From Rhizophagus irregularis (Eukaryota; Glomeromycota; Glomeromycetes; Glomerales; Glomeraceae): a stretch of 64,000 nt of DNA. The notes under the pieces are model-generated. The model did no database searches. It saw only the letters and a program-made list of their open reading frames with translations, and had not been told where the DNA came from. The DNA is taken from the NCBI RefSeq assembly GCF_026210795.1, contig NC_089439.1:3224001-3288000 (forward strand). Reading direction: 5' to 3'. Positions 1,018 through 55,796 of this stretch are shown here, in pieces; within the stretch, counting starts at the first letter, position 1; every line of letters starts with the position of its first letter. The translations under genes and the position numbers were made by a program.

Positions 1018-3449
1018 ATGTCTTATAGTACCGAAATTGAAGCTATAGATAATTCAAATGAGAGGATTAATTGGATTGAGGAAGCTATTTCAAAAAAACA
1101 TATTAAATTTTATGAATATAAACATTTTAAGAACATTAAAGAAATTGGTTCCGACGGAATTGGAAAATTCTATCGTGCAAATTGGAAAAATTTTCGTGAA
1201 CACTTAGTATTGAGATCATTTTATAATTTTAATAATAAAATTATTAAAGAGATTGTTTGTGAGGTAATTATAATATAATACACATTGTACTAAGCATAAA
1301 CCTACGTTCTTTTATATGTATATTTAATATAAATTTCTATTTTAGTTTAAACTTCATCGTGAAGTTGATTTTTATGATAATATTATTCGTCTTTATGGTG
1401 TTACAACTATCACTCAAGGTACAGTATAATAAATATTTTAATAATTTTACTTTTAGTACTTTTCGTAATTTTATTTCTTACAAACTTTATTTATTAAAAA
1501 AAAAATTTTTTTTTTCTTGTTTTTAATTAGAAAATCAGAATGATCAGTTAAAACCATATTTATTAGTAATGGAATATGCTAATGGTGGTACTCTACAAAA
1601 CTATTTAAAGAGAAATTCGATTAAACTCACTTGGAATGATAAATTTAACCTGGCACTTCAATTGGCTTATGCCGTATCATGTTTACATGATAAGGGAATT
1701 ATACACCATGATTTGGTAACGATTCATTTATTAATTATATTTATTGTATTATAAAAAATAATTTTATTTATATTTATTCATTTATTTAATGTTAGCACCC
1801 CAATAGTATTTTGGTTCGTCGAAATGTTATCAAATTTGCTGATTTTGGATTATCGAAAAGAATTGAAGAAATATCCAAACTTCAATCAATAGGGATAATT
1901 CCTTATATTGATCCAAAAAGATTTGATAGACGAAAAAGTATTGATAATAAAGTAAATCCGTCGTTAGATAAGAAGAGCAATGTTTATAGTGTAGGAATGA
2001 TTTTATGGGAGATCTCTAGTGGTAAACCTCCTTTTTATTCCGAAGACAATCCATATGATATCAATTTAGCTGTAGAAATTTCACAAGGTCTAAGGGAAAA
2101 GATTGTTCCGGAAACACCTTCCGATTACGTTAATCTATATACTGGTAAATTCAATTATAATTCATATAATAATTTTATTTTTTAATTATTTATTAAAAAA
2201 ACTCATTTTTAAAAATATTAATATTCCGTTTTTAGAGTGTTGGAATAGTGAACCAGATAATCGTCCAACTATGAATCAAGTGGTTGAAAGATTAAAATTA
2301 ATGATATTTGTTTCAAATCAACCATCTCAAATCATTCAAAAATTTGATAAAATAAATGTAAAAGAAACAACTAAATCATTAATTTTATTAGAAGAAAAAT
2401 TCAACAAAATAATCGATGAAATGGTTGATCTTATTCTTAAAAACCTAAATGAAGGAAAAAATACAGATATAGTAAAAAAACTTATTATTGATTATCTTAA
2501 TTATTATAATATAAATTTACAAATAATTTATGATTTACTTAAGGATATTCAAAATAATTCAAATTCTATTTTCTTATTTGGATATTTTAATTATTATGGA
2601 ATTACTATAGAAAATGAAAATTATGAAGAAGCATTTAAATCATTTATTATTGCATCAAAAGATAATCATACATTAGCACAATACTATGTTGGAAGATGTT
2701 ATGAATTTGGTATTGGAACTTTAAAAAATGAAACTTTGGCTTTTGAATATTATAAAAAAACAGTTGATCAAGATTTTACATTAGGAGAATTTAAGATTGG
2801 TTGTTTTTATGGTAAAGGAATAGGTATTGAAAAAGATGAAAAACAATCTGTTTATTGGTATAAAAAGGCTGAAAGTAATGGTCACTTAATGTCTATGTAT
2901 AATCTTGGTCTTTATTATCTGGATGAAAAGAGTGCTAAAAGAAACTATTATGAAGCCTTCAAATTATTTAAAAAATCTGCTGAAAAAGAGTATTCAGATG
3001 GAATAACAATGTTAGGATATTGTTATGATAATGGATTTGGGACAAAAATTAATAAACAAAAAGCATTTGAATTATATTTAAAAGCTGCAAATTTAGGAAA
3101 TAATATAGCACAACATAATCTTGCTCGCATGTATATAAATGGGGATGGTGTTGAAAAAGATGATGATAAAGCATTTGAATTATTTAAAAAATCGGCTGAA
3201 AGAGAAAATACGGATGGAATAGTAATGTTGGGATACTGTTATAATGATGGAATTGGAACAGAAATTGATAAACAAAAAGCGGTTGATTTGTATCAAAAAG
3301 CAGCATATTTAGGGAATGATGTGGCTCAATATAATGTTGCACTTTGGTACGAAGATATGCAAGATATAAATCAAGCCATCCATTGGTATAAATTATCTGC
3401 TGAACAAGGAAATCAAAAAGCACAAAGTAAATTAGAAGATTTAGAATGA
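1018..3449 (+). CDS. Kinase-like (probable pseudokinase) protein with 7 Sel1 repeats, gene 1
   Basis: Five exons join in frame: 1018-1263, 1346-1418, 1531-1715, 1796-2144, 2236-3449 (688 aa). All introns are GT-AG and 64-115 bp long. Residues about 35-270 form a TKL-type kinase fold: G-loop GSDGIG at 44-49, beta-3 motif VLRSF with Arg66 where the ATP-binding Lys is expected, HHDL at 165-168 in place of HRDL, DFG at 184-186, and the C-lobe tail ECWNSEPDNRPTM. After a helical linker, seven Sel1-like repeats of about 36 residues follow (pattern A-x-x-x-L-G-x-x-Y-x-x-G-x-G). Sel1 repeats are alpha-solenoid protein-binding scaffolds. The family is very large in Rhizophagus. With Lys to Arg and no HRD Arg, catalysis is doubtful; scaffolding or signalling by binding is the likelier role. 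Same intron phases as the genes at 52.3 and 59.4 kb. Confidence 0.85.
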
Positions 3450-4840
3450 AAAACTTGAGAAAAAAGCCATAAAGTATTCTAACTATTTACGAGAGAGATT
3501 TTATTTATATTTTTGCAATTCTAATAAAATTTATTGAAAATAAATTATATCTTACTGGTTTATCGTTGGCATATTTTCATAATATAATATAATAATATTA
3601 CACCAATATTGTAAACATAAAAGAAGCGCGACTTAGCACTAATTCTTTATTTGTCAGGTAATACCTTGTCGGACCATATCCTGAATGACTTTTGCTGAAA
3701 TTAGTCCCGAATCACTGTTTATTTCCGGAAGTCCAATTTCTTGAATCCTAAATCCCAATGTCCTGATTCCTGAATGGACAATTGCTTGAAATATACAATA
3801 TAACAATAACTAGTATAAATAATCATCCCATCCAGATATGATCAACACTGCAGATACAACTGACGCGATATATTTATTACTTTTTCGTGATTTAATCATC
3901 TTAATCTTTAAATCTATAATTAATAATATGCGAATTTTTTAAATTATTTATATTACTACATGAATAATAAGTAATTTTTAAAAAAACTCTGTCTATAAAT
4001 AGCTAATATGGACGACACTAACTTTCTAGATTGGCTGCTTTCTTATGTGTATGTGATTTTGGATATTATTTTGCTTGTTTGTGTAACAGTTCAGGCTAAA
4101 GTTTACAAGAATGTAGAGATTTTTTATGATTTTTTTCATTATTTTAGTTGGTATTAATTAAGTCTTTTAGTTCTTAAAAGACGTAATAAAGAATATCACT
4201 ATTTAATTCTGACATTATCAATTTCTTTGGAGTGAAAATATAATTTAATTTATTTACATATCTGTAGAAATTTAAAATTTCTAAGAAAAATTATTTGATA
4301 ATAAAATATTTAATACAAGATCGGAGCGCATAAATTTGAATAAATATAGTGACCATTTGAATTGGATAATCAAAGGAAATGAATTTAATGCTTCATCATT
4401 TGTAAGAAGCGGGTCAAGTATACTGTATACAGTATCTGGTATACCGAAGCCAGCCAAATTTTTTAATTATAACAAGTTATCTCAGTAAATTCTAGATCTA
4501 TTCGGAGTTACAAATTGTAATGCGCACGTGATTTTTGATCGTGAATATTTTCCCGAATGAATGAATCTCGTAGTTAGCAGTATTGGCGATAGCCGTAAAA
4601 ATTTACCATAAATGTAGGAGCAAAGAAATAACATGACGTAGGAACTCGCATTACATAATTTATTTCTTTGTAAAATACTGTATACTCTATTCTGAAAAAT
4701 AAAGTTTTCATATATTGCAGACTTTTAAAAAATATGTTACATGAAATCGTTACAGTTAAAAACTACGAAATTGTTTTATCACCATTATTACGCAAAGAAA
4801 TGCAAGAATGTTGATTGAAGCAGAAATTAACTTCCCACTA
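3450..4840. other. Intergenic; one fragment shared with the 51.4-52.1 kb element
   Basis: No gene seen between the stop of kinase-like gene 1 and the 3' end of the CRN gene (tail to tail). The stretch 3990-4110 resembles 51885-52010 (shared cores such as GCTAATATG and CTTTCTTATGTGT), so it is probably a worn partial copy of that MITE. A short inverted repeat with GTATACTGTATAC lies near 4418-4436. Confidence 0.5.
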
Positions 4841-7605
4841 TTAATTTTTTTTTACGACCTTAATCCTTTTCTTTGCTTGTTCATTCATACTGACTTTACT
4901 ATATAGATCATCTTCATCGTTGTATAGCCTTTTGTTACATATTTCATGCGCAGTTTCTTCTTCCATCATTTCAACGGTTCTTAGTTCATACTCCGAAGCA
5001 GTATTAGCGTCCAATTTATCATTGGCTATATGAAACAATAATAAAAGGTTACATAACAGTAAGATATCTTAAATCACAAGTCATTAACTCGTACCTTCAG
5101 AAAATTCAGCACGACTAGAATACGTATAGCCATAAAAATCCTTAAAATTCGCTTTGTATACTACAAGACAATTTGATTGTAATAAGTCCAAAGCATCTTC
5201 AGTCTTAGGTCCGTTTGTGCATATGAAAAGCATCCAGTCCTTAAGTTCAGGAATTTTTGCCTTTAATTCCTTATATGCCTTTTCAGTCTTCTCATACTCA
5301 TCTTGTATTATTTTCTTGCTCAAAGTCTGGGGTTGATTAGTTGTGGCGTCTGAAGACTTTACTTGGATCGCAAAAAGGCAATTATTAATGAAAAAAAAGA
5401 TATCAAATGGAGCTCCTTTACAATTCTTATATACGGTACAAGGTGACAGGTGTTCATTCTGTGATGTATGAGGATACCGATGTTTAAGTTCCTGATATTT
5501 TATAGAACTTTCGTCAAGGAGCTTAAACTTATATTCTTGATTTTCTAAAAACTCAAATTCATTAAAACCATACGCGCCCCTGAAGAGATCTTTTATTGTT
5601 ACGTCTTTATTTAAGATTGAAAGAAGTGTAAGCCGTAAAGTCCAAAACTTCACGTTGAAAAATTCAAAGCTTTCCCAAAAAACATGAGAATCTTGCTTAA
5701 TCATAACTTCCCAAAATTCACACGATTTGTTAAATGATGTTAATATGGCAATCCATATATAAGGCATGCGGACATAAAAGGAAGCGCTGTCGGCTACTTT
5801 TTCCAAATTTAGAATACCTTCTGATGAGAGGTCAATATAGGATACTCTCCCATCTTTATCAGCTACATTATGTTTAGACACAGGGATATTAAGGATGGCA
5901 TGCGCAATTGCTGGAGTTACAGTGTAAGCAAAATGCTTAAACTTGTATCGATCCATAAGTTCTTCCTTTACATTTGTAATACAATGTACATAATCCACAT
6001 TATTTGTTCCACGCCCAAATTTCTTCACCAAATCTTCAAAGAAAATTTCTAGAGCCCGAACTTGCCCACCAAAGTCGCTAATACAACGACGAAAAGTACC
6101 ACTGTTGATATAATCTCCTAAAGAATAACGTTCAGAGACAAACTCAATAATGTTCTGTACCTCCCGACTTTGAAGAAGGCGAAGTGGTAGTTGTAAATAA
6201 CGATAAGTTGATTCTTTGAGTATTTCTTCAAGAGGACCTTGGATTGTTCCGGCCAAGATTGGTACATGAAATATATTTTTGCCAAGGCAATTTAATCCTC
6301 CGACAGCATGAATAATTGAACGAAGTGGATTGTTTTTAAATAAATCCCTATCGTACAAGCTGTGAAGATTATTTAGTTCATCAATGCCGAGGATAATTAT
6401 GTTAATATCAGTGTCAACATCCTTGAGAACAATCTCAAGTGCACCACTAATTTTGATTTTACAATTTTCGCCACACATCATCACAAATTTTTCATAGTCA
6501 TAAGCTCCACCGGAGATAAAATGTTCGTAAAGAATTCTCAATGCGACTGATGTTTCGCCAAAAAATACATCATCCAGTTTTGCAGGAGTACCGTTGCCAA
6601 AGGTAACATTTACGGAATACATCCTGTCTTTGATCATATTCAAGAGTTCATCGTCATTCGTGTATTTTTCAGCTTGTTCACGTAATAAAGTTGGAATCTC
6701 CTGTAGGAATCGGCTCTTGCCAGTACCTGGTCCATTAGCCAATATGGGGATAGGGTGGATATTTCGGTCTGTTTCATTGCGTTTTGTAAATCTTTCGCAA
6801 ATTCCATTTCGACTTCCGTTGCCTTCCATTAATATTTTCATTGTCTCCTCCCGGCCTTGTAGAGGAAAGTCGGCACCTGATGTACTCACCAACTGATAGA
6901 ATATATAAATTAGTGCGCAACCAGAAACAGAAAAAAACAAAACAAGTTAAACAAAAACATACTTTAGGTACTACAGTTTTAGGGGGACGCTTCAAGGTCA
7001 TCATCCAGTTGTAAATCGAATTAACGTCATTCCAATTGACCCCATCTATATGTATCAATAATGGCGAGTTAGAATACAAAGACTAAAACAACACAGGATA
7101 TTTAACTAGAGATACCGTACTTTGTGTAACGCCTTGCTGGGAGGGATCTGCTTTAATGCGAAAAAAGAGATCAGACCAAATCGATATTTGTTACTGCAAA
7201 TTTCTTGTTCGAGAGGTAAAACATGGGGAGACACTTACTGGGGATGATGGCAATGACATGGATATTAGACATTGTAAATTTAACTCCATTTAATTCATCT
7301 TGAAAATAGTCCTTAAACATTAGTCTAGGTTTCATTTCATCTTCTTTAGGTTTTTCTTTAATGTCACTTTCATCTTTGACGTCAACTTTCCAAAGTTTCA
7401 CTGCGTGTCTATCAGAATCAGCAACTTTTCTCCTATCGCAGATATAATCCTTGAGGTGACCAACTTTGAAATCTTTAAAGTCGTAATGATTATTACCAAG
7501 CTTGGCAATTATGTTTTCATTATTTTCTTTATTAAAGTTAACCAAGAAAGAGTCAAGAGGGTTAACCGTGTCGCTTAGAACTGAACAATTGAATGACACT
7601 AACAT
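4841..7605 (-). CDS. Crinkler (CRN) family effector: header + P-loop NTPase + REase-like C-terminal domain
   Basis: Proposed exons on the minus strand: 7605-7239, 7147-7116, 7082-6963, 6892-5095, 5025-4841. All junctions are GT-AG and keep one frame of 833 codons. Exon 1 is a CRN N-terminal header (ubiquitin-like; starts MLVSFNC, ends in the conserved IIP region). Exon 4 carries Walker A NGPGTGKS at about residues 226-233 and Walker B IIILGIDE at about 338-345. Near the C-terminus, Asp (nt 5404-5402) followed by QVK (nt 5365-5357) fits a PD-(D/E)xK-type nuclease core with Gln for Glu. The last exon adds an acidic stretch and a basic tail KKRIKVVKK that could be a nuclear signal. Known CRNs act in host or competitor nuclei; that this one does is inference. 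Exon 2 is only 32 nt and is the least certain part. Alternative headers lie at 7725-8159 and 8279-8713. Confidence 0.75.
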
Positions 7606-7724
7606 TTTAAAGATGGCGAGTTAGAATACAAAGACTAAAACAAGACAGGATATTTAACTAGAGATACCGTACTTTGTGTAACGCCTTGCTGGGAGGGATC
7701 TGCTTTAACGCGAAAAAAAAGAGA

Positions 7725-8159
7725 TCAGACCAAATCGATATTTGTTACTGCAAATTTCTTGTTCGAGAGGTAAAACATGGGGAGACACTTACTGGGGATG
7801 ATGGCAATGACATGGATATTAGACATTGTAAATTTAACTCCATTTAATTCATCTTGAAAATAGTCCTTAAACATTAGTCGAGGTTTCATTTCATCTTCTT
7901 TAGGTTTTTCTTTAATGTCACTTTCATCTTTGACGTCAACTTTCCAAAGTTTCACTGCGTGTCTATCAGAATCAGCAACTTTTCTCCTATCGCAGATATA
8001 ATCCTTGAGGTGACCAACTTTGAAATCTTTAAAATCGTAATGATTATTACCAAGCTTGGCAATTATGTTTTCATTATTTTCTTTATTAAAGTTAACCAAG
8101 AAAGAGTCAAGAGGGTTAACCGTGTCGCTTAAAACTGAACAATTGAATGACACTAACAT
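7725..8159 (-). CDS. Extra CRN header exon, tandem copy 2
   Basis: A 144-codon frame identical at protein level to the header of the downstream CRN copy. The usable coding part ends at the GTAAG donor after 7793, as in the other copies; the remaining codons are intron read-through. Linear splicing into its own exon 2 and exon-3 stub would run into a stop just after the next copy's ATG, so this copy is either an orphan or an alternative first exon for the complete gene. Confidence 0.7.
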   Translation of the reverse strand: MLVSFNCSVLSDTVNPLDSFLVNFNKENNENIIAKLGNNHYDFKDFKVGHLKDYICDRRKVADSDRHAVKLWKVDVKDESDIKEKPKEDEMKPRLMFKDYFQDELNGVKFTMSNIHVIAIIPSKCLPMFYLSNKKFAVTNIDLV

Positions 8160-8278
8160 TTTAAAGATGGCGAGTTAGAATACAAAGACTAAAACAAGAC
8201 AGGATATTTAACTAGAGATACCGTACTTTGTGTAACGCCTTGCTGGGAGGGATCTGCTTTAACGCGAAAAAAAAGAGA

Positions 8279-8713
8279 TCAGACCAAATCGATATTTGTT
8301 ACTGCAAATTTCTTGTTCGAGAGGTAAAACATGGGGAGACACTTACTGGGGATGATGGCAATGACATGGATATTAGACATTGTAAATTTAACTCCATTTA
8401 ATTCATCTTGAAAATAGTCCTTAAACATTAGTCTAGGTTTCATTTCATCTTCTTTAGGTTTTTCTTTAATGTCACTTTCATCTTTGACGTCAACTTTCCA
8501 AAGTTTCACTGCGTGTCTATCAGAATCAGCAACTTTTCTCCTATCGCAGATATAATCCTTGAGGTGACCAACTTTGAAATCTTTAAAGTCGTAATGATTA
8601 TTACCAAGCTTGGCAATTATGTTTTCATCATTTTCTTTATTAAAGTTAACCAAGAAAGAGTCAATAAGGTTAAACGTGTCGCTTAGAACTGAACAATTGA
8701 ATGACACTAACAT
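8279..8713 (-). CDS. Extra CRN header exon, tandem copy 1 (most diverged)
   Basis: Third header copy, the furthest upstream. It differs from the other two at a few residues near the N-terminus (for example FNLID against VNPLD) and keeps the same donor after 8347. It probably holds the original promoter, since the duplicated unit begins only a few bases before each ATG. Confidence 0.7.
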   Translation of the reverse strand: MLVSFNCSVLSDTFNLIDSFLVNFNKENDENIIAKLGNNHYDFKDFKVGHLKDYICDRRKVADSDRHAVKLWKVDVKDESDIKEKPKEDEMKPRLMFKDYFQDELNGVKFTMSNIHVIAIIPSKCLPMFYLSNKKFAVTNIDLV

Positions 8714-9203: not shown

Positions 9204-9808
9204 TGTAATGCCGTAGTATACATAATAAATTTATTAATTGTGAGGCGCAGTATTATATTTAGTCTTAGTGTATAAAATTGTAATTTATTTTTAGTTGTAT
9301 TAATAATTGGACCGAAAAGTCGTTAAACTATTAGTCATGAGAATCAAGGATAATTGGTCCGTAATGACCTTAAACTATTAGTCACGAGATTTAAGGATAA
9401 ATGAAGATCTGAAAGATACTAAATTGAATCAAATCAAGTGATCTGAGGTGTCAAGTGATTAATTTGTTGATCACTACGTTAATATAATTCAGGAGTTCAT
9501 GATGATCAAAATGGATACAAAATTAAGATAATGGAAATACTTTAAAAACAATGGAAATACTTTAATAATTTAAATCCATGAATCGAAATTATGAATTTAG
9601 TTACACAAAAACAAACATAAAAAGGCGTGAAGATCACCTTTTGGGAAGGACAGAGAAAATTGGACGAATTTTGTTATGAATTATTTATTTTATTATTCAA
9701 TGTTATTAAACCAAGCATATTATTGTATTTATTTATATTATTAATAAAGAGATATTTTTGTTAATACCTAAGGTGGCAACGTGATTTATCACGGGCTTAG
9801 GTTTTACA
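9204..9808 (+). repeat. 5' LTR of gypsy-1
   Basis: 605 bp, TG...CA termini; matches 19524-20127 throughout apart from one substitution and one indel in the stretch around 9499-9510. Contains TATAAAA near 9272 as a possible core promoter. Confidence 0.95.
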
Positions 9809-11541: not shown

Positions 11542-14500
11542 AGAATTTTATTAAAAATAGAATGGTACCATGTTTGGAACGCTGAATATATAAACCATAA
11601 ACAAGAACATGACCTAGGAGTGATAGAACCAGAGGAATGTTTAGCATGTGAAATATGTAATCCAATAGAAAGAGAAGTATCAGCAGCATTCAAGAAATTT
11701 TGGGATGCTTTATTTAAATTTGAGGATACAATACTAATGTACAATAATGTAACACATAAAGAATTATTGAATTTATTAAGTATGGACAATAGAGAAAGGG
11801 AGGATACAATACATAAAGGAAAATGTAGGAATATAGTAGATAGAATAATTGAATCAATAAGGTACAGACAACAACCAAAAATGAAAGAAAAAGGTTTAAG
11901 GATAATAATTGTAGTAATTGTAAGGGATTGTATTGAAGGAAATTTAGAAAATGAAGTATTTGACCGGTTAATTGGATGTCCAGAAATAATGGAACATGGA
12001 TATATTTTGGAAGATTGGGATGTTGAAAACAAATTTCAAAAATTTTGGGAATGGTACGGTTCAATATTAGAATTTGGGGTGGAAGTAATCCATGCGACAC
12101 CAGAAACAATAGTAATATTCAGGAAATTATTATACATGGAAGAAACCATAACTGAAAATATAGGAAAAGTAATTGATTTAACGAATACAATTGTTTACAG
12201 AAACTCATTAGGAAAGGAAGAACCAAAACAACAAGATTGGGAAAGATTGATACAGAAAGTGTTACAAAGATTTATTGACACCAAACAATTTACAAGGGAA
12301 CCTGAGGACCCAGAAAGTGATAGTCCTGAAAGTTATGAATTAGAGGACAGTGATGGTAGTATACATTATGAAATAAAAATAGAGGATGATGTCGAATGGA
12401 CAGTGGAATCATTAAAAAGAAAAATTGAAGAAATGGGTGGAAGGTTCACCGACAAAGATATACAAAGAATGTGGGACCTAAGGATAAGGATAGAATTGAT
12501 ATTAACAGAGGACTTTTTAGGTACATTTTTCGAATTAATGGGACTAAGTGATGAAAAATTAAAAGATGAAATAAATGAATGGTTAACAAAAGAAACATTA
12601 ATATGTGGAAATTGTAGGAATAGAAAGTTACCTGATATGATAGCAGACATTGGACAATGTAAAAATTGTGAACAAGAAGTATTATTAGAATTAAAGGACG
12701 ACTTAGAAAAACTAGGGTACGAATTAAATGTGTCAGAAATAGGGAGAATAAGAGAATTCAGGATAAGCAATAGTATAATATTAACAACGGAATTTATGGA
12801 AAAATATCTCCAGGAAATTGATACGAATGACAAAGAATTAAGGATAAAATTATATGAATGGATAAATGAAAATACCACATTTTGTGATGAATGTGGAATA
12901 AGATGGATAAACAATAAATTTGACGAAGGAAAAACCAAGTGTAGGGATTGTGAAAATGACGAAAATGAAATTGATATCAGGGTTAAAAGATTAAAACAAA
13001 TATGTGATGATAATAAAATAGGAATAACTAATGGAGAGTTATTGAGGTTAATCAGTATGGGATATACTGATGGAGAAATATTGGATCAAGAATTTATTGA
13101 AATATTCCAAGGAAATAAAAATGAAATGGAGAAAAATTTAAGGCGAATATTAGATAAATTTCTAAAACAGCAAGCTGGAATTGAGGATAGTGAAAGTAGT
13201 GGAAATGAATCTGATAATGAAAAATCTGATGGATCTGAAAAAGAATCAGATGGATCTAGAAAAGACGGAGAAATTTTAAATCCAAATGATACCGATAACA
13301 ATGAAAATTTTGAAGAACCTTATGAAGAAAACATTATAAATAGACCTGGTTTTGACTCAAGTGAAAGTTCAGAATCAAACTCTGAGGATAAAAGTGAAAT
13401 ATCTGATTATAATATAGAAAATTTATTTGAAACACCTTTAACACCACCGATACCACCAATTCTACCAATAGTACCAATAATTATGGGAGCAACAAGAGCT
13501 GAAGTAAGGGAAGATTTTAGAGCGGCTTTACTAGCAGCAACGGGACATGATATAGGAGGTAATTGGGCTGGATTAGTCGCAGCCAACCCATTAGCAAATG
13601 CAATTGAGGATGCAGGAAATGTAGCTGGAGGAATAATTAGTATGCCACAATTTTATGGAAGGGAAGAAGAAGACATAAACGATTGGGTAAGACAATTTGA
13701 AACAGCATTTACTGCTATAGGAAAAGCAGCAGGAGTAAATGGAGCTAGACAAGCAGCAATGGCAGCTACCTGTTTGAAAGGTGCAGCAGCACAATGGTAT
13801 AATGAAAAGAAGGAAGCAAACAATGGTCATTTGGTAAATTGGCAAGATAACGATAATGATAATGATTTAAAACATAGGATTAAACAAAGATTTACCAGGG
13901 AAGATGTTAGAAAAAGGAAAATGTTAGAATTAAGGAAAATAACACAAGGAGTAAATGAAAATGTTGAGGCATATACGATAAGGTTTAGACAAATATTAAG
14001 GATAGCTACCAGAGGCCATGCATTAGATGATGAATTACAAGTAGATAATTATATCGAAGGATTAACACCAACATTGGGATATCAAGTCAGAAGACAAAAC
14101 CCAGCAAATTTAAATGATGCAGTGAATACAGCAAGAAGAGAGGAGGAAGCTACTAATGAATTAATAAGAAAGACACGTGGTATATCAGTTAGTACCCAAA
14201 GAAAAGGAATCGATATACAAGATGACAAGCCAAAGAATATATTTGAAAAACCATTGGAGAAAAATTATGAGGATGACCTTACCGAGATGTTTAAAAAATT
14301 AGAGGTAAAATTGACAAACCAACTTAGTGGACAAAGGAGACCACCAAATAACAATAGACAAGGACAATCAATGCGAGTATGTTATAAATGTCAACAACCA
14401 GGACACTATGCAAGGGATTGTAGAGTAAATAATGGTCAAGCAAACTATAGAAGACCAAACAACCAAAATTATAATAAAGGACCAAATAATTACAATGGAA

Positions 14501-15138
14501 GATCAAATAATTATAACAGACAACCAAATTACCAAAATAATAATCGAGGATTTAATACGATGGAATTTGATAACTATAATGATTACAATGACCAATACGA
14601 TTACGATGGCCAAGATTATCAAGATGATTATGACCAAGAATACAATTATGGTGACCCATATTACCAAAACAATGATGTAGTATTTAACCATGTTGATCAA
14701 GATTTTTATGATATTCCAAGACAAACAAGGAGTAATATAAAAAATAGGTCAAGTGATCGAGATATAGATATGGAAATTGACCGAGAACAAGCACGCAGAA
14801 GAAATGATAAATATGCCAGTCAACAGGATAAGGCAGCAGCATTACCAAAAAGGGGATTTACTAGTGAGAGTTTGAGAAAAGCTCAGGAAACAAAAAGAAA
14901 TAATAATACATGTGGAAATTGTGGACAAAAAGGTCACTATGCATCAGAATGTAAAAATGAACGTGTTGAAGGTATTCATAGGACAAGCGCATTTCAAAGA
15001 AATGTACCAAAATATAACGTATTACAGGATATGAAAAATACCAGAGCAAATGCAACCTTTTCACAAATTATAAACATGAGTCCAGAGCAAAGGAAAATAT
15101 ATTATGAAGGAATGAGAAGGTATCCACAAACAGATTGA
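11542..15138 (+). CDS. Large Gag polyprotein of gypsy-1
   Basis: The frame is open from 11542 (stop TAG just before); the first ATG is at 11737, and Gag may instead be entered by recoding or splicing. Counting residues from 11620: two CX2C-X14/15-CX2C zinc-ribbon-like modules (about 329-350 and 422-444); an acidic Ser/Glu/Asp-rich linker (about 520-620); a retrotransposon Gag capsid domain from about 675 (QFYGREEEDINDWVRQFE, then a WYNEKK-type motif); and two CCHC knuckles, CYKCQQPGHYARDC at 921 and CGNCGQKGHYASEC at 1098, separated by an Asn/Tyr/Asp-rich region. At about 1170-1200 residues it is several times the usual gypsy Gag length; the N-terminal 640 residues are the extra part. Ends in TGA followed by CTA, in frame with the protease. 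Confidence 0.85.
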   Translation, partial: RILLKIEWYHVWNAEYINHKQEHDLGVIEPEECLACEICNPIEREVSAAFKKFWDALFKFEDTILMYNNVTHKELLNLLSMDNREREDTIHKGKCRNIVDRIIESIRYRQQPKMKEKGLRIIIVVIVRDCIEGNLENEVFDRLIGCPEIMEHGYILEDWDVENKFQKFWEWYGSILEFGVEVIHATPETIVIFRKLLYMEETITENIGKVIDLTNTIVYRNSLGKEEPKQQDWERLIQKVLQRFIDTKQFTREPEDPESDSPESYELEDSDGSIHYEIKIEDDVEWTVESLKRKIEEMGGRFTDKDIQRMWDLRIRIELILTEDFLGTFFELMGLSDEKLKDEINEWLTKETLICGNCRNRKLPDMIADIGQCKNCEQEVLLELKDDLEKLGYELNVSEIGRIREFRISNSIILTTEFMEKYLQEIDTNDKELRIKLYEWINENTTFCDECGIRWINNKFDEGKTKCRDCENDENEIDIRVKRLKQICDDNKIGITNGELLRLISMGYTDGEILDQEFIEIFQGNKNEMEKNLRRILDKFLKQQAGIEDSESSGNESDNEKSDGSEKESDGSRKDGEILNPNDTDNNENFEEPYEENIINRPGFDSSESSESNSEDKSEISDYNIENLFETPLTPPIPPILPIVPIIMGATRAEVREDFRAALLAATGHDIGGNWAGLVAANPLANAIEDAGNVAGGIISMPQFYGREEEDINDWVRQFETAFTAIGKAAGVNGARQAAMAATCLKGAAAQWYNEKKEANNGHLVNWQDNDNDNDLKHRIKQRFTREDVRKRKMLELRKITQGVNENVEAYTIRFRQILRIATRGHALDDELQVDNYIEGLTPTLGYQVRRQNPANLNDAVNTARREEEATNELIRKTRGISVSTQRKGIDIQDDKPKNIFEKPLEKNYEDDLTEMFKKLEVKLTNQLSGQRRPPNNNRQGQSMRVCYKCQQPGHYARDCRVNNGQANYRRPNNQNYNKGPNNYNGRSNNYNRQPNYQNNNRGFNTMEFDNYNDYNDQYDYDGQDYQDDYDQEYNYGDPYYQNNDVVFNHVDQDFYDIPRQTRSNIKNRSSDRDIDMEIDREQARRRNDKYASQQDKAAALPKRGFTSESLRKAQETKRNNNTCGNCGQKGHYASECKNERVEGIHRTSAFQRNVPKYNVLQDMKNTRANATFSQIINMSPEQRKIYYEGMRRYPQTD

Positions 15139-15678
15139 CTACAAGAATCAATGAACAACATTGAAGCAGAACACTTAACTGCATTAAGGGGTAAATTAAT
15201 AATAAACCAAGAATTAAAGGACGTAATGTTTGATACAGGAGCAGCAGTAAATGTAATAACTAGTCAGATAATGGATGAAATGGACCTAAAAATTGAGGAA
15301 CCGAGTACAGTAAGATGTGTGATGATAAATGAGGATAAATTAGCATCTAGGGGTACCACGACAATATACATACAATTTGGGGATAAGGAAATACCCATTA
15401 AGGTTGAAGTAATTGATTCAGGAAAAAACGAAATTGTGTTAGGAAATGGAGTATTAGATATGTTCAAAGCAAATATAGATTACACAGATAAAACAATAAT
15501 AATTAGAATGAATGATGAAACTATGGATATACCAGTAAAATACACACAAAGGACCATTAAAGGGTTTGAAGAAACATTTGATGAAGAGGAAATATTGGAG
15601 GAATTATACCAGGATGAATTGTATAACATATATGAAGATGACCATGAAGGTCAGGAAGATGAAAATTTTAAAGTATAA
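15139..15678 (+). CDS. Retroviral-type aspartic protease of gypsy-1
   Basis: Same frame as Gag and separated from it only by the TGA at 15136-15138; an ATG at 15151 could also start it. The catalytic motif MFDTGAAVNVIT has its Asp at residue 28 from that ATG, and the second hydrophobic strand IVLGNGVLDM matches the retropepsin ILG-type motif. Cleaves Gag and Pol. Ends at TAA 15676-15678, overlapping the RT frame by 7 nt. Confidence 0.85.
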   Translation, partial: LQESMNNIEAEHLTALRGKLIINQELKDVMFDTGAAVNVITSQIMDEMDLKIEEPSTVRCVMINEDKLASRGTTTIYIQFGDKEIPIKVEVIDSGKNEIVLGNGVLDMFKANIDYTDKTIIIRMNDETMDIPVKYTQRTIKGFEETFDEEEILEELYQDELYNIYEDDHEGQEDENFKV

Positions 15679-17153
15679 GTCTTGGTCAGAATGATACTGA
15701 AGAGACGATAAAGAAGCACAAAAGTGACCATGAGAAATTTACTGAAAAATTTAAAGTAGGGGACATAACCAATGAACAAAAAGGTAAATTAAAGGTATTA
15801 GTAGAAAAATATAAGGATATATTTGAGTACGATGGTGAAAAATATAACAGGACAAACTTAGTAAAACATGAAATCAGATTAAAAGGGGGTACTGAACCAA
15901 TAGCCCAAAAGAGGTACAAAGAAAATGATGAAAAAGGTAAATTCATCAGAAAAGAGGTTGAAGAAATGTTAAAAATGGGAAAAATTAGAGAATCTAGAAG
16001 TCCATGGTCTTCACCAGTGACTCTAGCAGGGAAAAAGTCGGGAAATTATAGATTTTGCATCGACTATAGAAAATTAAATAAAGTTACAATAACAGATGCA
16101 TATCCATTACCAAGGATTGATGAACAACTAGAAAGGATAAGTTCAGGAAAATGGTTTACTAGTCTAGATTTAGCATCAGGGTTCAATCAGATAGAAATGG
16201 CTGAGGAAGATATTGAGAAAACAGCATTCATATGCTCAGCAGGATTATATGAATATAATGTCATGCCATTTGGGTTAACAAATGCGCCTGCAAGTTTTCA
16301 AAGGTTAATGGATAGAGTGTTAAAGGAGTACCTAAATGAATTTGTGATAGTATACATTGATGATATAATGATATATTCGGAAAATTTTGAAGACCACCTA
16401 AAACACATAAAGTTAGTGTTAGAAAAATTAAAGGAAGCCAGTTTAATACTAAAGTTAAAGAAATGTATATTTGGAAAGACAGAAATAGAATTTTTAGGAC
16501 ATGTAGTTGGTAAAAATGGATTAAAACCAAGTCCAGGAAAGGTTGAAAAGATACAAAAATTAACAGCACCTATAAATATAAAGGGTGTAAGGTCAATATT
16601 GGGGTTATGTACGTATTATAGAAAATTTATTAAAGATTTTTCAAAAATAGTAAAACCAATAACATCTTTATTGAGAAAAGATGAAAAGTTTGAATGGGGC
16701 ATCAAACAACATGAAGCATTAGAAATATTAAAAAGGAAATTAACCGAAGAACCGGTGTTAAGACAACCAGATTGGTTAAGGAAATTTATATTAATTACAG
16801 ATGCTTCAGGAATAGGATTAGGGGCAGTGCTAGCTCAAAAAGATGATAAAGGTCAAGAATATGTAATAGAATATGCCAGTAAAAGTTTAAACAGGACAGA
16901 ACAAAGATGGCCAATAACCGAACAAGAATGTTATGCAATTGTATGGGGAATACAACATTTCCATAAATACTTGATCAATAGAAAATTTGAGGTAGTAACA
17001 GACCATGCAGCTTTGAAGGGATTAATGACTGCAAAAGTACCAAAAGGAAAGAGATCAAGATGGGTCATGGAATTAGAACAGTATGATTTTGAAATAACTC
17101 ATAGACCAGGAAAAGAAAATAAAAATGCAGATGCCTTATCAAGAATAATATAA
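15672..17153 (+). CDS. Reverse transcriptase - RNase H of gypsy-1
   Basis: An open frame of 493 codons with no ATG before 15966, although clear RT sequence (lead-in to SRSPWSSPV) is already present, so translation probably enters by a minus-one event from the protease. RT motifs: CIDYRKLNK, LDLASGFNQI, the YIDD box (Asp pair at about residues 229-230), and FLGHVVGKNG. RNase H: ITDASGIGLGAVLAQ, EQECYAIVWGIQHF and VTDHAAL. Ends with TAA in the ADALSRII tail typical of gypsy RNase H. Confidence 0.93.
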   Translation, partial: SISLGQNDTEETIKKHKSDHEKFTEKFKVGDITNEQKGKLKVLVEKYKDIFEYDGEKYNRTNLVKHEIRLKGGTEPIAQKRYKENDEKGKFIRKEVEEMLKMGKIRESRSPWSSPVTLAGKKSGNYRFCIDYRKLNKVTITDAYPLPRIDEQLERISSGKWFTSLDLASGFNQIEMAEEDIEKTAFICSAGLYEYNVMPFGLTNAPASFQRLMDRVLKEYLNEFVIVYIDDIMIYSENFEDHLKHIKLVLEKLKEASLILKLKKCIFGKTEIEFLGHVVGKNGLKPSPGKVEKIQKLTAPINIKGVRSILGLCTYYRKFIKDFSKIVKPITSLLRKDEKFEWGIKQHEALEILKRKLTEEPVLRQPDWLRKFILITDASGIGLGAVLAQKDDKGQEYVIEYASKSLNRTEQRWPITEQECYAIVWGIQHFHKYLINRKFEVVTDHAALKGLMTAKVPKGKRSRWVMELEQYDFEITHRPGKENKNADALSRII

Positions 17154-17189: not shown

Positions 17190-17429
17190 ATGGAACAAGT
17201 GGTAAGAAATACAAATCATAAAATAAAGGATATAATCGAAAACTTAGAAGGTATAACGAATAAATTAAACAGGATAAATTATAACTATAAATACAAAACC
17301 AAAAATTTTGAAGATAGTAAAGAAAGACCATTAATATTAGAAACTCAAGAGGAAATATTACAAATAGAGGTAATATTAAGTAGAGTAAATAAGTTAAAAT
17401 TATCAGAATTATGTAAAAATGGGACCTAA
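17190..17429 (+). CDS. Small ORF (79 aa) between RNase H and kinase-integrase
   Basis: ATG at 17190; its stop overlaps the ATG of the next ORF (17419) by 11 nt, as in termination-reinitiation pairs. Predicted helical and charged; no family recognised. Gypsy-2 has a comparable small frame at the same place (minus strand, about 29600-29750). Confidence 0.5.
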   Translation: MEQVVRNTNHKIKDIIENLEGITNKLNRINYNYKYKTKNFEDSKERPLILETQEEILQIEVILSRVNKLKLSELCKNGT

Positions 17430-19200
17430 AATAATAATCATATGTGGAGTTGATGGTACTGGAAAAACATTCATTGTAAATAAACTTATAAAAGAATTTG
17501 AAAAAGTAGGACAAAGTGTGAGGTTTAACACCTTTAAAAGGAGAAGAGAGGACAATGATAAGTATAAAATACCAAAGAAAGGTATAGAATGGGAATTCAG
17601 GAAGGAAGTTGTCGAACAAATCAACAGGAGAATGGAAGAACATGATAATGAGGATTGGTTAATATTAGATAAAAGTCCCTATAGTGAGTACTTTTATCAA
17701 CAAACACCATCATTCGACAGAGGATACATAACAAGATATGAGAACCACCTATTAGAAAAGGAAGTATTTAGGAACAAAAGGATAATTGATGAATCAATAG
17801 TGATATTTTTAGAAAATGAAAAATGTTGGGAAAATTACAAAGGTAGAGAATATTCGAAAAAGGATCAAGGACATAAAACATCATACCCATTATTAGATGA
17901 AGAAGGATATATGGAGATGGTGAAATCATTTAAAGAATGTCAAGATATTTACGAAGGAGAAAAATATGCTAATATTAAAATATCAAATAATGACACAGAT
18001 TGGGAAAGAGTATATAATAAAATAATAGAATTAGATGGAGATAAACCACCAATAGAGGTTAAAAATGTTGAGATTAAGGATAACATCAGAGTAACTGATG
18101 GTAAAAAGCATATTGAGAAAAATGGTAAAAACATAAGAATAATAGAAGACTTTGAAAAGATGGGAGCACTATATTTAGCTCACAGTCATGAATTATCGGC
18201 ACATATGGGAATCAAAAGTACTTATGATAATTTAAAAGATAAATATTATTGGGAAAATATGCTGAATGATGTTGAAAGATATGTAAGGACATGCGATGAA
18301 TGTCAAAGAAGAGGAAAACCACAAGGGAAAAATGAATTACACCCAATTAAAGTAGTAGAACCATGGTATCAAATCGGGATTGACTTTGTTGGACCATTGA
18401 ACACGACAACAAATGGTAATAAATACATCATAGTAGCAATGGATTATTTTACAAAATGGCCAGAAGCCAAAGCAGTAAAGGAAGCAACTGCCAAAGAAGT
18501 ATCAAAATTTATTTATGAAGACATCATTTGTAGACATGGATGTCCAATGAAAATATTGAGTGATAGAGGAAGTCATTTCAATAATGAAATGATTAAAGAA
18601 TTAATGGAAAAATTCAAAATTAAATGGAATTTTTCTACAAGTTATCATCCAGAGACAAATGGACTTGTTGAAAGATTCAACCGAACATTAGGTCAAGCAT
18701 TAGCAAAATTATCAACCAAAGATGATTGGGATCAAAGGATAGCACCCATATTATTTGCTTACCGAAATAAAAAGCATAGTTCAACAAGAATTCGACCATT
18801 TTATTTAACATACGGAAGAAATGTACGGACAATAATGGATGAAAATATCAAAGAAATTAACCTAAGTGATAGAATAGTTGGATTATTAGAAGAACTACCA
18901 AAAATCCGACATGAAGCCAAAGAACAAATACTGAAATCTCAAACAAAACAAAAAGAGTATCATGACAGAAAAATAATCAAAGAACACACCTTTGGAATTG
19001 GAGATAAAATACTACTCTATGATAAAGCCAAAGCACAACAACTATCGGGAAAATTGGAATCAAAATGGTTGGGACCATTTTACATTCATGAAATACTACC
19101 AAATGGAGCCTACAAAATTAAAGATATTAAGGGTGTAATCAAGAAAACACCTGTAAATGGAGAATTATTAAAGACTTACCATACACCGATGAGTAAATGA
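17419..19200 (+). CDS. Nucleotide-kinase-like domain fused to integrase (gypsy-1)
   Basis: 593 aa. Residues 1-215 resemble a thymidylate/deoxynucleotide kinase: P-loop GVDGTGKT at 10-17, LDKSPYS at 83-89 in the place of the family's DR(Y/F)xxS motif (Lys for Arg), then a YQQ and a basic lid-like segment GREYSKKDQGHK. Residues about 240-593 are a gypsy integrase: His residues at 255/257 and 262 with Cys292 and Cys295 form the HHCC zinc site; the catalytic triad is Asp322, Asp382, Glu418 (D,D-35-E); a GPY/F module (WLGPFYIHEIL) follows. The second gypsy element in this window has the integrase without the kinase domain. Suggested role: phosphorylating dNMPs to favour reverse transcription in non-dividing cells. 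The alternative is a captured P-loop protein used for nucleic-acid binding. The fusion is seen directly; its role is inferred. Confidence 0.85.
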   Translation: MGPKIIIICGVDGTGKTFIVNKLIKEFEKVGQSVRFNTFKRRREDNDKYKIPKKGIEWEFRKEVVEQINRRMEEHDNEDWLILDKSPYSEYFYQQTPSFDRGYITRYENHLLEKEVFRNKRIIDESIVIFLENEKCWENYKGREYSKKDQGHKTSYPLLDEEGYMEMVKSFKECQDIYEGEKYANIKISNNDTDWERVYNKIIELDGDKPPIEVKNVEIKDNIRVTDGKKHIEKNGKNIRIIEDFEKMGALYLAHSHELSAHMGIKSTYDNLKDKYYWENMLNDVERYVRTCDECQRRGKPQGKNELHPIKVVEPWYQIGIDFVGPLNTTTNGNKYIIVAMDYFTKWPEAKAVKEATAKEVSKFIYEDIICRHGCPMKILSDRGSHFNNEMIKELMEKFKIKWNFSTSYHPETNGLVERFNRTLGQALAKLSTKDDWDQRIAPILFAYRNKKHSSTRIRPFYLTYGRNVRTIMDENIKEINLSDRIVGLLEELPKIRHEAKEQILKSQTKQKEYHDRKIIKEHTFGIGDKILLYDKAKAQQLSGKLESKWLGPFYIHEILPNGAYKIKDIKGVIKKTPVNGELLKTYHTPMSK

Positions 19201-19523: not shown

Positions 19524-20127
19524 TGTAATGCCGTAGTATACATAATAAATTTATTAATTGTGAGGCGCAGTATTATATTTAGTCTTAGTGTATAAAATTG
19601 TAATTTATTTTTAGTTGTATTAATAATTGGACCGAAAAGTCGTTAAACTATTAGTCATGAGAATCAAGGATAATTGGTCCGTAATGACCTTAAACTATTA
19701 GTCACGAGATTTAAGGATAAATGAAGATCTGAAAGATACTAAATTGAATCAAATCAAGTGATCTGAGGTGTCAAGTGATTAATTTGTTGATCACTACGTT
19801 AATATAATTCAGGAGTTCATAATGATCAAATGGATACAAAATTAAGATAATGGAAATACTTTAAAAACAATGGAAATACTTTAATAATTTAAATCCATGA
19901 ATCGAAATTATGAATTTAGTTACACAAAAACAAACATAAAAAGGCGTGAAGATCACCTTTTGGGAAGGACAGAGAAAATTGGACGAATTTTGTTATGAAT
20001 TATTTATTTTATTATTCAATGTTATTAAACCAAGCATATTATTGTATTTATTTATATTATTAATAAAGAGATATTTTTGTTAATACCTAAGGTGGCAACG
20101 TGATTTATCACGGGCTTAGGTTTTACA
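19524..20127 (+). repeat. 3' LTR of gypsy-1
   Basis: 604 bp, near identical to 9204-9808; followed by CCGG, the same four bases that precede the 5' LTR. Confidence 0.95.
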
Positions 20128-27575: not shown

Positions 27576-28626
27576 GTTATCTCTCCCAAGAAAAATTTGA
27601 GTCTCATCAAATTCTAATTATAACTTCAAAATTCGACCTATCGATATATTCCTTTAATAATTCTCCATTTACTGGTGTTTTCTGTATTCTTTCTTCCATA
27701 GTCTTGATTCTATAAGATCCTTTAGAAACTTTTTTGTGTATATAATAAGGTCCTTTCCATTTTTCTTCTAATTTTCCAGACCACTGTTTTTCTTTTGCTG
27801 CATCGTAATATAATACTTTATCTCCTATCTGGAATTTCTTCTTTATTTTATTCTTCTTATTATGATATAACTTCTGTTTCTCTTGAGATTTTTCAATATT
27901 TTCTTTAGCTTGATTTCTAATGCTTGGTAATTCCTCAATTAGACTATTAATTCTTTGTGTTATTGTAACATTTTCATCTTCCAAGTTCAATAATGTCTTC
28001 ATTTCCTTTCCATATATTAAATATCCTGATTTTAACTTTGTCAATTCATTTTTTTTTGTTCTGTATGCAAATAAAACTCCTGATACCTTTAAATCCCAAT
28101 CTTTCACATTACTCAATTTTGCCAACAATTCACATAATGTTTTATTGAATCTTTCAATTAATCCATTCGTTTTTGGGTGATAAGACGTTGAAAAATTATA
28201 TTTTATCTGAAATTTCTCCATCAACAATTTTACTAATTTATTATTAAAATGGCTTCCCCTATCACTTAATATCTTCTTTGGACATCCATGTTTACATATT
28301 ATTTCTTCATAAATGAATCTTGCAATTTCTTTAGCATCTGCTGTTTCTAAAGCTCTAGCTTCTGCCATTTCGTAAAATAATCCATAGCCATAACTATGTA
28401 TCTATTATTTCTTTCTGTTATTGGTAATGGTCCCACAACATCTATTCCAATTTGATAAAATGGTTCTTAACATTTAATTCATGTTTTTCAATCAGTTTTC
28501 CTCTTCTTTGACAACTATCGCATGACTTGACGTATATTTCTATATCTCGTCTCATTCCTTTCCAATAATATTTCTCTTTAACCCTTTCATGTGTTGCATC
28601 TATTCCAAAATGTCCCGACAATTCAC

Positions 28627-29123
28627 ACACGTCAAATGACCAAAAATAGGCAAAAAAAATGGCTAGAATTGCATAAACTATTCAGGACCCCGGATATCTC
28701 CAAAACAGGTCATAAGTCACACTTTCGGCAGATTGGCCCATTTTTCAGCACAAAAATCGTTTTTTGTAAATATCTCGGCATCCAGTGGTCCAATTTTGAT
28801 GACCTTTTTTTTAAATTGTAGAGCTAAATGAGGGCTACAAAATAAAAAAAAGTTCATTAAAATTGAATTACTGGATGCTGAGATATTTACAAAAAACGAT
28901 TTTTTGAGTTTCAACGAAAAGGGTGTTTTTGGCTTTTTGCAAAAGTCCATTATGACCTTTATATTAGATATCCGGGTCCTAACTATTCGCAAATTTATAT
29001 AAACTATTTACAAATAGTAGTATAGGTTAATTCGCAAATAGCCAAAAACAGCCAAGAATAGCCAAGAATAGCCACTGCTTTTCGTGCCATTTTTTTTGCC
29101 GATTTTTGGCATTTTGACCTGTG
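28627..29123. mobile_element. MITE-B inserted in the gypsy-2 integrase
   Basis: Inverted repeats of about 33 bp: GTCAAATGACCAAAAATAGG from 28631, and its counterpart GTCAAAATGCCAAAAATCGG read on the minus strand from 29118, both continuing CAAAAAAAATGGC. A clean target duplication could not be decided. MITE-C lies inside it. Confidence 0.7.
28684..28980 (-). mobile_element. MITE-C copy 1 (297 bp, hAT-type, imperfect palindrome)
   Basis: Ends AGGACCCCGGATATCT and AGATATCCGGGTCCT; 8-bp duplication AACTATTC at 28676-28683 and 28981-28988. The whole element is nearly self-complementary (ATCGTTTTTTGTAAATATCT arms). Same length and sequence as 42376-42672, in opposite orientation. Confidence 0.9.
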
Positions 29124-30240
29124 TTATGGTCATGTGCAATATACATTAATCCTTCAAACTCATATTTTCTTATTACTCTTAAATCTTTATTATCTTTTAT
29201 TCTATATAACAAACCATCTTTTATTCTATAATGTTGTTCATTATCTATATTTTTAATTATCTCATTATATTTATCTTCTTCCATTAATTAATATATCTTC
29301 TATTTCTTCTTCAAAATGTAAAATAAACCTTATATTTTTATCTTTAAATAACACGAAGTGATAACTTGTATTCTTATAATATAAATATATATTCCTATTC
29401 CAAATTTCCAATATTTTCAGTAGTCATTTTACTTTTCCAATAGCTTTTCAACTTATTTATATACATTTCTCCAACTTGTGTTATAAGGATTAAAGTGTTG
29501 TATCTATTCTAAAACATCCTATTATATATGTTAATTTTCCATTTCCTATCATTAATTTAATCTTTATATTTTCGTATTCATTTAGCCTTCTTCTTCTAAT
29601 GTTTCATAAAAATATTCTATGTCTTCTCTCAATTTATTTGTTTGATTTTCTACCATTATTCTCTCATCTTTTAGGCTTGTCAATATTTTATTCATCTTAA
29701 ATTTAGCGACTAATTTTGGTCGATCATTTTCATTAACATTTCTAAAAATAGATCTCTAATTTTAGTAGATCGCTATATTTAGATTCCATTAACTTAATTT
29801 GTTATTTTTGCCCCTTAATTTATCACGTTTTACTATTTAAAATATTTTCCCCTTGTTTTAAAATAATTCTTCTTACTCCAGAAATTTTCCACATATCACC
29901 ATACGTTTTATATTATTATTCCTAATTAATTTTTATTATTATCCAATTATATTTTCTTAATATTGCGCAATTTTTCTTCATAATTTTTCTATTGTAATAC
30001 TCATGTCTGATCTCTTAATTTTATCATTTATCTTGATAAATTCTTTGTCCTCAAAATAATTCATTTTTATGCGTTTTACGTATTTTACGCATATTATCTT
30101 TCATTTAAATATCCATAAAATTCTACTTATTCACACTTCTTTTTCTTTCTACATTATTTTCATTTTTATCATTATTATTTTTATTTTTTTTTTAACTCCA
30201 TTTTTCCTATACTATTTTATCTCAACTCCTTATACTGTGA

Positions 30241-55300: not shown

Positions 55301-55796
55301 ATATCATAAAGCAGCAAATTTAGAAAATAATGCTATAGCACAACATAATCTTGCCCTTATGTACAAAGATGGTAATGGCGTTGAAAAAGATGATAATAAA
55401 GCATTTGAATTATTTAAAAAATCAGCCGAAAGAGAATATTTAGACGGAATTACAATGTTGGGATATTGTTATGATAAAGGAATTGGAACAAACATTGATA
55501 AGGAAAAAGCATTTGAATTATATCAAAAAGCTACAAATTTAGGAAATAAAACAGCACAACATAATCTTGCTCTTATGTATAAGGATGGAGAGGGGGTTGA
55601 AAAAAATTACAATAAAGCATTTGAATTATTCAAAGAAGCAGCAGAAAAGGGATATTCAGAAGGAATTACAATGTTGGGATATTGTTATAATAATGGAATT
55701 GGAACCAAAATTGATAAGCAAAAAGCTATTGAGCATTATCAAAAAGCCGCAGATTTAGGAAATGATATAGCTAAATATAACCTTAAATGTTTGTAA
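52311..55796 (+). CDS. Kinase-like (probable pseudokinase) protein with 12 Sel1 repeats, gene 2
   Basis: Exons 52311-52559, 52637-52709, 52944-53125, 53209-53551, 53650-55796, all GT-AG (997 aa). Kinase-like part: G-loop altered to SSGEIG (first Gly is Ser45), beta-3 LILRSF with Arg67 for Lys, HGDL at 165-168, DLG at 184-186, and ECWKPEPDERP closing the C-lobe. A helical linker module (VDEIVNLISKNLNEG ... LLGYFDYYG) occurs twice. Then come 12 Sel1 repeats plus a partial one; from the fourth on they alternate between DGITMLGYCYxNGIG and AQHNLAxMYKDG types, a 72-residue pair repeated about five times. With glycine loop, Lys and HRD Arg all changed, it is the most degenerate kinase of the three. 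Convergent with gene 3 across 1.3 kb. Confidence 0.85.

Follow-up and report, generated by a model that had tools for sequence, protein, structure and literature searches.

A kinase-like domain was identified in the pol region of a Ty3/gypsy element of Rhizophagus irregularis, inside the 64,000-nucleotide stretch of DNA analysed here (the window). The kinase is conserved, under purifying selection, and common to several element families and species. On the basis of fold, slot and selection, a Rhizophagus Ty3/gypsy lineage probably carries in pol a kinase of thymidylate kinase (TMPK)/deoxynucleoside kinase (dNK) fold that is made with Pol, packaged and active on a nucleotide, boosting the dNTP supply. 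The kinase would be translated within Gag-Pol or as a Pol product and would enter the particle together with reverse transcriptase (RT) and integrase (IN). It may act as a nucleotide kinase, with dTMP or some other dNMP as the likeliest substrate, and would thereby raise the dNTP (dTTP) for reverse transcription in hyphae with low host nucleotide supply. As a model of the benefit, a supply of dTTP is plausible.

Element layout and age

The element is bounded by a 5′ LTR with TG...CA ends (9204..9808, +) and a 3′ LTR (19524..20127, +) with a purine-rich stretch just upstream. These direct repeats, 605 and 604 bp long, are 1 substitution and 1 indel apart, and CCGG flanks both sides. With LTRs so nearly identical the element is young, as the initial annotation had stated. 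TG...CA LTRs with a target duplication, the order protease (PR)-RT-RNase H-IN, and the HHCC, D,D35E and GPY/F motifs are those of Ty3/gypsy (Metaviridae) elements, with the kinase interposed ahead of IN. Upstream of the element, a tandem repeat with three copies of a unit of approximately 554 bp was seen (7061-8568). Sel1-repeat genes lie at 2103-3449, 53685-55796 and 57107-58273, and this gene family is reported to be expanded in R. irregularis (PMC8647823).

All ORFs of the element were on the + strand. The Gag ORF (11620..15138, 1172 aa) has a Retrotrans_gag match at residues 714-816 and zinc knuckles; a long N-terminal extension of approximately 700 aa precedes the capsid match (11620-13700). 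The aspartyl PR ORF (15151..15678, 175 aa) matched gag-asp_proteas at 31.9 bits (Pfam cut-off, 28.2) and RVP_2 at 29.7 bits (cut-off, 20.3), and the RT-RNase H ORF (15966..17153; stop-to-stop frame, 493 aa) matched RVT_1 at 143 bits and RT_RNaseH at 125 bits. The last ORF (17419-19200, 593 aa) is stop-free and carries, as first described, a kinase and a complete gypsy integrase in a single uninterrupted frame. Its P-loop nucleotide-kinase domain of predicted TMPK/dNK fold (17419..18045, residues 1-209), assigned by predicted fold, motifs, selection and profiles, has the P-loop GVDGTGKT at residues 10-17 and LDKSPYSEYFYQ at residues 83-94. The IN part (18064..19197) scored 63.8 bits with Integrase_H2C2 and 42.4 bits with rve, both above the Pfam cut-off; it has the HHCC domain, 35 residues from the second catalytic D to E, and GPF at 552.

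Between RNase H and the kinase, a small ORF of 79 aa (17190..17429, +) occupies the position of an in-frame linker in several other families and ends, stop codon included, 11 bases into the kinase ORF. This region was shorter in 6 of the 32 family-A loci having an RT match. In three family-A loci (L021, L031 and L053), 230 bp less lay ahead of the kinase, between AAAAATGG repeats. A spliced intron was rejected as the source of this difference and the gap was read as a deletion, because the repeats flank it and its ends showed no splice signals by eye. Open-frame lengths were shared among copies (493 aa in 30 RT rows and exactly 600 aa in 20 kinase rows), so the split Pol ORFs of the window family look like a working layout and not decay.

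A second gypsy element in the window had been said to lack the kinase. A search of the rest of the window by means of the proteins of this element found only integrase pieces (27646-29251) and no RT; the lack of a kinase there is thus uninformative.

Copies, slot and selection

The genome (146.7 Mb in 32 contigs) held at least 151 matches to the kinase sequence, the counts being lower bounds since 150 of 176 candidates were scored and 150 places listed. Among these 150, 121 were stop-free over at least 590 nt, 15 contained a stop and others were truncated. Identity to the window copy was 89-100% in 36 rows (two partial) and 44-66% in the other 114, which lie in other Ty3 families. Relatives with a named source came from R. 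irregularis, R. clarus, R. diaphanus and Glomus cerebriforme; most other relatives were metagenome proteins. The suggested lineage-specific capture was therefore abandoned: the domain is not confined to the window element, and its presence in other Ty3 families and other species argues against capture by one young lineage.

The kinase kept a constant place. Of 346 candidate RT places, 105 were scored (all at 65% identity or more), and for 102 of them a same-strand kinase match followed no more than 3 kb downstream; in the remaining 3 it was on the same contig and strand, approximately 4 to 16 kb away. At the commonest spacing (44 of the 102), the kinase lay only 18 nt from the RNase H match. 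The order RT-RNase H, kinase, integrase was found in all 16 of the other-family loci L035-L050. RT, RNase H and kinase share one frame in many other-family copies, open-frame lengths of 704-708 and 777-779 aa recurring for RT and kinase alike within one element, and database proteins have RT-RNase H-kinase or protease-RT-RNase H-kinase as one frame. In the window family, the kinase follows a stop and continues into integrase instead. The constant feature is thus the slot between RNase H and integrase; the kinase-integrase fusion holds for the ORF of the window family, as a local layout, and not in general.

This bears on the reading of the kinase as an ATPase acting in integration (target choice, like TnsC or IstB) or as a DNA 5′-end kinase. 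Fusion to integrase in the window family, a weak match of the window copy to the IS21 helper ATPase (E 0.009) and the polynucleotide kinase annotation of some weakly similar phage genes would agree with such a role. It is nevertheless very unlikely, because many other-family copies share a frame with RT-RNase H instead and the fold matches are TMPK/dNK.

Selection was estimated as omega by a GY codon model (iqtree) on quick trees, leaving out stop-containing rows and short matches. In the window family (33 sequences, 32 of them distinct), kinase omega was 0.191; the other families (15 sequences, 14 of them distinct) gave 0.072. For RT, the values were 0.043 and 0.038, and for IN, 0.097 and 0.035, the other-family RT and IN sets including a few kinase-less loci. 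With omega fixed at 1 and kappa held at its free value, the kinase log-likelihood fell by 49 in the window family and by 204 in the other families. Selection thus holds the kinase, less tightly than RT and IN, and is purifying across copies, not relaxed. Kappa was approximately 30 in the family-A kinase versus 9-10 in family-A RT and IN.

With at least 151 genome matches, mostly stop-free, and purifying selection, the kinase-integrase ORF is not a chance frame. That the kinase is a functionless passenger or annotation artefact is hardly credible: stops in 15 of the 150 listed places and truncation of others are what it would predict, but it is largely contradicted by the omega tests and also by the common slot, the occurrence in several species and the cassette replacement described below.

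Identity of the kinase domain

The predicted structure of the kinase domain had the thymidylate kinase fold, and the fold matches listed were TMPK/dNK; the model of the whole 593-aa protein (pLDDT 54.6) was left out of this evidence. In Z score, dCK rows tied with TMPK, and a deoxyadenosine kinase headed the Foldseek list. Fold scores do not separate the two enzymes, so a dNMP kinase and a deoxynucleoside kinase are indistinct by fold, and the model points to a domain of TMPK/deoxynucleoside kinase fold.

Sequence profiles matched weakly. The kinase part of the window copy had no match above any curated cut-off of Pfam or TIGR00041: Thymidylate_kin (PF02223) reached 21.4 bits (cut-off, 27), AAA_28 26.9 bits (cut-off, 27) and TIGR00041 DTMP_kinase 21.8 bits (cut-off, 83.25). 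Among seven relatives scanned separately, P0036 passed with PF02223 (28.9), the rest giving 20.6-26.6 or no match, and L047 had no Pfam match at 1e-3. Four of the seven reached the low cut-off of cobW. In P0036 and P0066, FtsY ranked above dTMP kinase, TIGR00041 scoring 26.5 and 25.8 bits, below 83.25. These scans slightly weakened the sequence case for a thymidylate kinase. By sequence, the best matches among solved structures were to the P-loop of FtsY and spanned the first 35-60 residues; most matches to solved structures covered the P-loop only. With sub-cut-off scores and cobW and FtsY matches, the sequence evidence is largely that of a generic P-loop. AAA+ identity was rejected, the AAA_28/AAA_18 labels being generic P-loop matches and the listed fold matches TMPK/dNK.

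Across the family, TIGR00041 matched 19 of 19 members at E ≤ 0.01 and Thymidylate_kin 18 of 19, both weakly, and a precomputed PF02223 domain was present in 22 of 100 relatives. The label "thymidylate kinase" has already been given automatically to metagenome proteins of this family in databases. PHROG 761 also matched the true dNK of the R. irregularis genome and gave matches in all 14 control genomes; its label therefore does not fix the substrate. The proposed kinship with nucleotide kinases stood by predicted fold, conservation and selection, and the profile search agreed weakly.

Thymidylate kinases carry the P-loop GxDGxGK[ST] and a DR(Y/F) motif. The P-loop is present in the element kinase, and the place aligned to DR(Y/F) reads DKS, with lysine instead of arginine. 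In alignments whose rows for the most part shared 42-66% identity with the window copy, Asp12, Lys16, Arg61, Asp84, Lys85 and Arg143 were invariant or at least 90% conserved. The P-loop and DKSPY were both kept in 47 of 48 stop-free frames, the exception being L029, in which a P-loop glycine was changed.

A deoxynucleoside kinase of the salvage route, in place of a dNMP kinase, would still feed dNTPs from another starting substrate and is rather unlikely. The tie of dCK with TMPK and the deoxyadenosine kinase heading the Foldseek list agree with it, as does DKS-x-Y-S/C-E, which resembles the dNK motif E/D-R-S-x-Y-S-D. The P-loop GVDGxGK[ST], on the other hand, is TMPK-like. Whereas Thymidylate_kin matched 18 of 19 members, the dNK profile PF01712 reached E ≤ 0.01 in only 3 of the 19 (best E, 7e-4), and it was absent from the 14 families listed for the window copy at that threshold.

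Alternatively, the domain could serve Pol structurally, in dimerisation, in spacing or in binding RNA or IN, and retain its fold for that reason while its catalysis has weakened or disappeared. The substituted DR motif, the kinase omega above those of RT and IN in the window family, and a dUTPase-related lentiviral protein without activity that is reported to be critical for replication (PMC4261571) point in this direction. The conservation of the six residues named above and the two motifs intact in 47 of 48 frames make it unlikely, and an active nucleotide kinase remains the preferred reading.

Exchange, origin and known systems

The L042/L046 type grouped with L036 and its kin in the RT and IN trees and with L047/L050 in the kinase tree. 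A kinase tree constrained to unite L035, L036, L042 and L046 was worse by 105 log units (AU p 2e-85), and an IN tree constrained to unite L042/L046 with L047/L050 was worse by 64 (AU p 7e-4); these p-values are descriptive only because the groups were picked after the sequences had been inspected. L042 was approximately 98% identical to L036 up to the kinase start and approximately 70% from there, and 88% identical to L047 over exactly 3001-3609. The next 400 bases matched both poorly, and over 4011-5569 identity to L036 was again 90%. In L042 the kinase was swapped for another at the domain borders, RT and IN keeping the other ancestry; the kinase is thus exchanged as a cassette between element families.

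For comparison, six Ty3 loci that have no kinase match nearby were used (L055-L060). The RNase H-integrase gap was 225-260 nt in five of them versus 913 nt in the window, and L059 has at this junction an unrelated Cys-containing insert of approximately 310 aa. In the RT tree (20 rows), the kinase bearers were all on one side of a branch, with the kinase-less L056, which carries 2 stops, adjoining (70/90; 88/79 when L055 and L056 were omitted from the tree); this fits a single gain. In the IN tree, L056 stood beside the kinase bearers L047/L050 (81/81), so either loss or exchange also occurred or the trees are unsure. One gain, or a gain plus loss or exchange, are both compatible with the trees.

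Neither candidate host gene was accepted as donor. The P-loop of the host thymidylate kinase exon in L004 (GCDKAGKST, Lys-bearing) is unlike GVDGxGK[ST], and the host dNK gene in L061 (1988-2995, -; one open frame of 336 aa; PF01712 match of 1.2e-31 over residues 131-328) belongs to a different family; capture of a fungal CDC8-like gene is therefore doubted. Scanning with the kinase alignment gave 43 pattern matches in prokaryote genomes and 77 in viral contigs, none confirmed as a relative, and of 47 phage records with a match at E ≤ 10, the best 20 all had E 0.3 or worse. The metagenome protein P0139 (383 aa) has a kinase approximately 40% identical to that of the element, with the same core motifs. 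It differs in a NUDIX hydrolase domain ahead of the kinase, and no RT or integrase domain was matched on it. By sequence it is a possible relative of the kinase donor; a viral scan with P0139 found no relative.

The element kinase differs from thymidylate kinases (PF02223/TIGR00041) in the scores of the window copy below curated cut-offs, in Lys for Arg and in being part of a retroelement Pol. From deoxynucleoside kinases (dCK/dGK/dNK, PF01712) it differs in that few members match the profile, and it is unlike the genome's own dNK gene. In the titles and abstract openings found, a coverage outside which most subscription papers lie, no thymidylate kinase or deoxynucleoside kinase domain was described in LTR retrotransposons, and the corresponding excerpts on R. 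irregularis transposable elements mention protein kinases but not an element nucleotide kinase. There is about an even chance that these are the first LTR retroelements found with a deoxynucleotide kinase that they encode and package themselves. It would be a dNMP kinase at the RNase H-IN junction that supplies RT inside the particle with dTTP/dNTP, an exchangeable cassette positionally convergent with lentiviral dUTPase.

In resting cells, a shortage of nucleotides can hold back reverse transcription, and to our knowledge retroelements answer low nucleotides, if at all, with dUTPase, a hydrolase of a fold unlike that of the kinase. A kinase acting on dTMP would serve a later step than dUTPase on the route to dTTP. 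Such elements may help make the raw material (DNA building blocks) for their own copying, and the kinase reading yields a testable prediction on element spread in multinucleate mycorrhizal hyphae. Both the kinase and the insert of L059 are relevant to the question why new domains are tolerated at the RNase H-IN junction.

Fungal Ty3/gypsy elements with an acquired nucleotide-metabolism domain, dUTPase, are reported from Postia placenta and also from Phanerochaete and Tuber (PMC2864245). In Postia it lies at the Pol N- or C-terminus or between PR and RT and, in the excerpts of that report, never at the RNase H-IN junction, in which it differs from the kinase. No dUTPase domain was among the Pfam matches shown for the Gag, PR, RT-RNase H and kinase-IN ORFs of the window. 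Nearest to the kinase in position and probable function is the dUTPase of non-primate lentiviruses: its coding region sits between those of RNase H and integrase, the protein is released from Gag-Pol by cleavage, and it is reported to be critical mainly in cells that do not divide (PMC4531489; position also in PMC1224870). The same arrangement, with the kinase between RT-RNase H and IN, was found in the window and in the 16 loci L035-L050. By analogy, a nucleotide-metabolism domain in this pol slot may help in nucleotide-poor cells, but theirs is a dUTPase and that of the element a P-loop kinase fold; if the reading is true, the kinase would have arisen as a separate solution, and a more active one than dUTPase.
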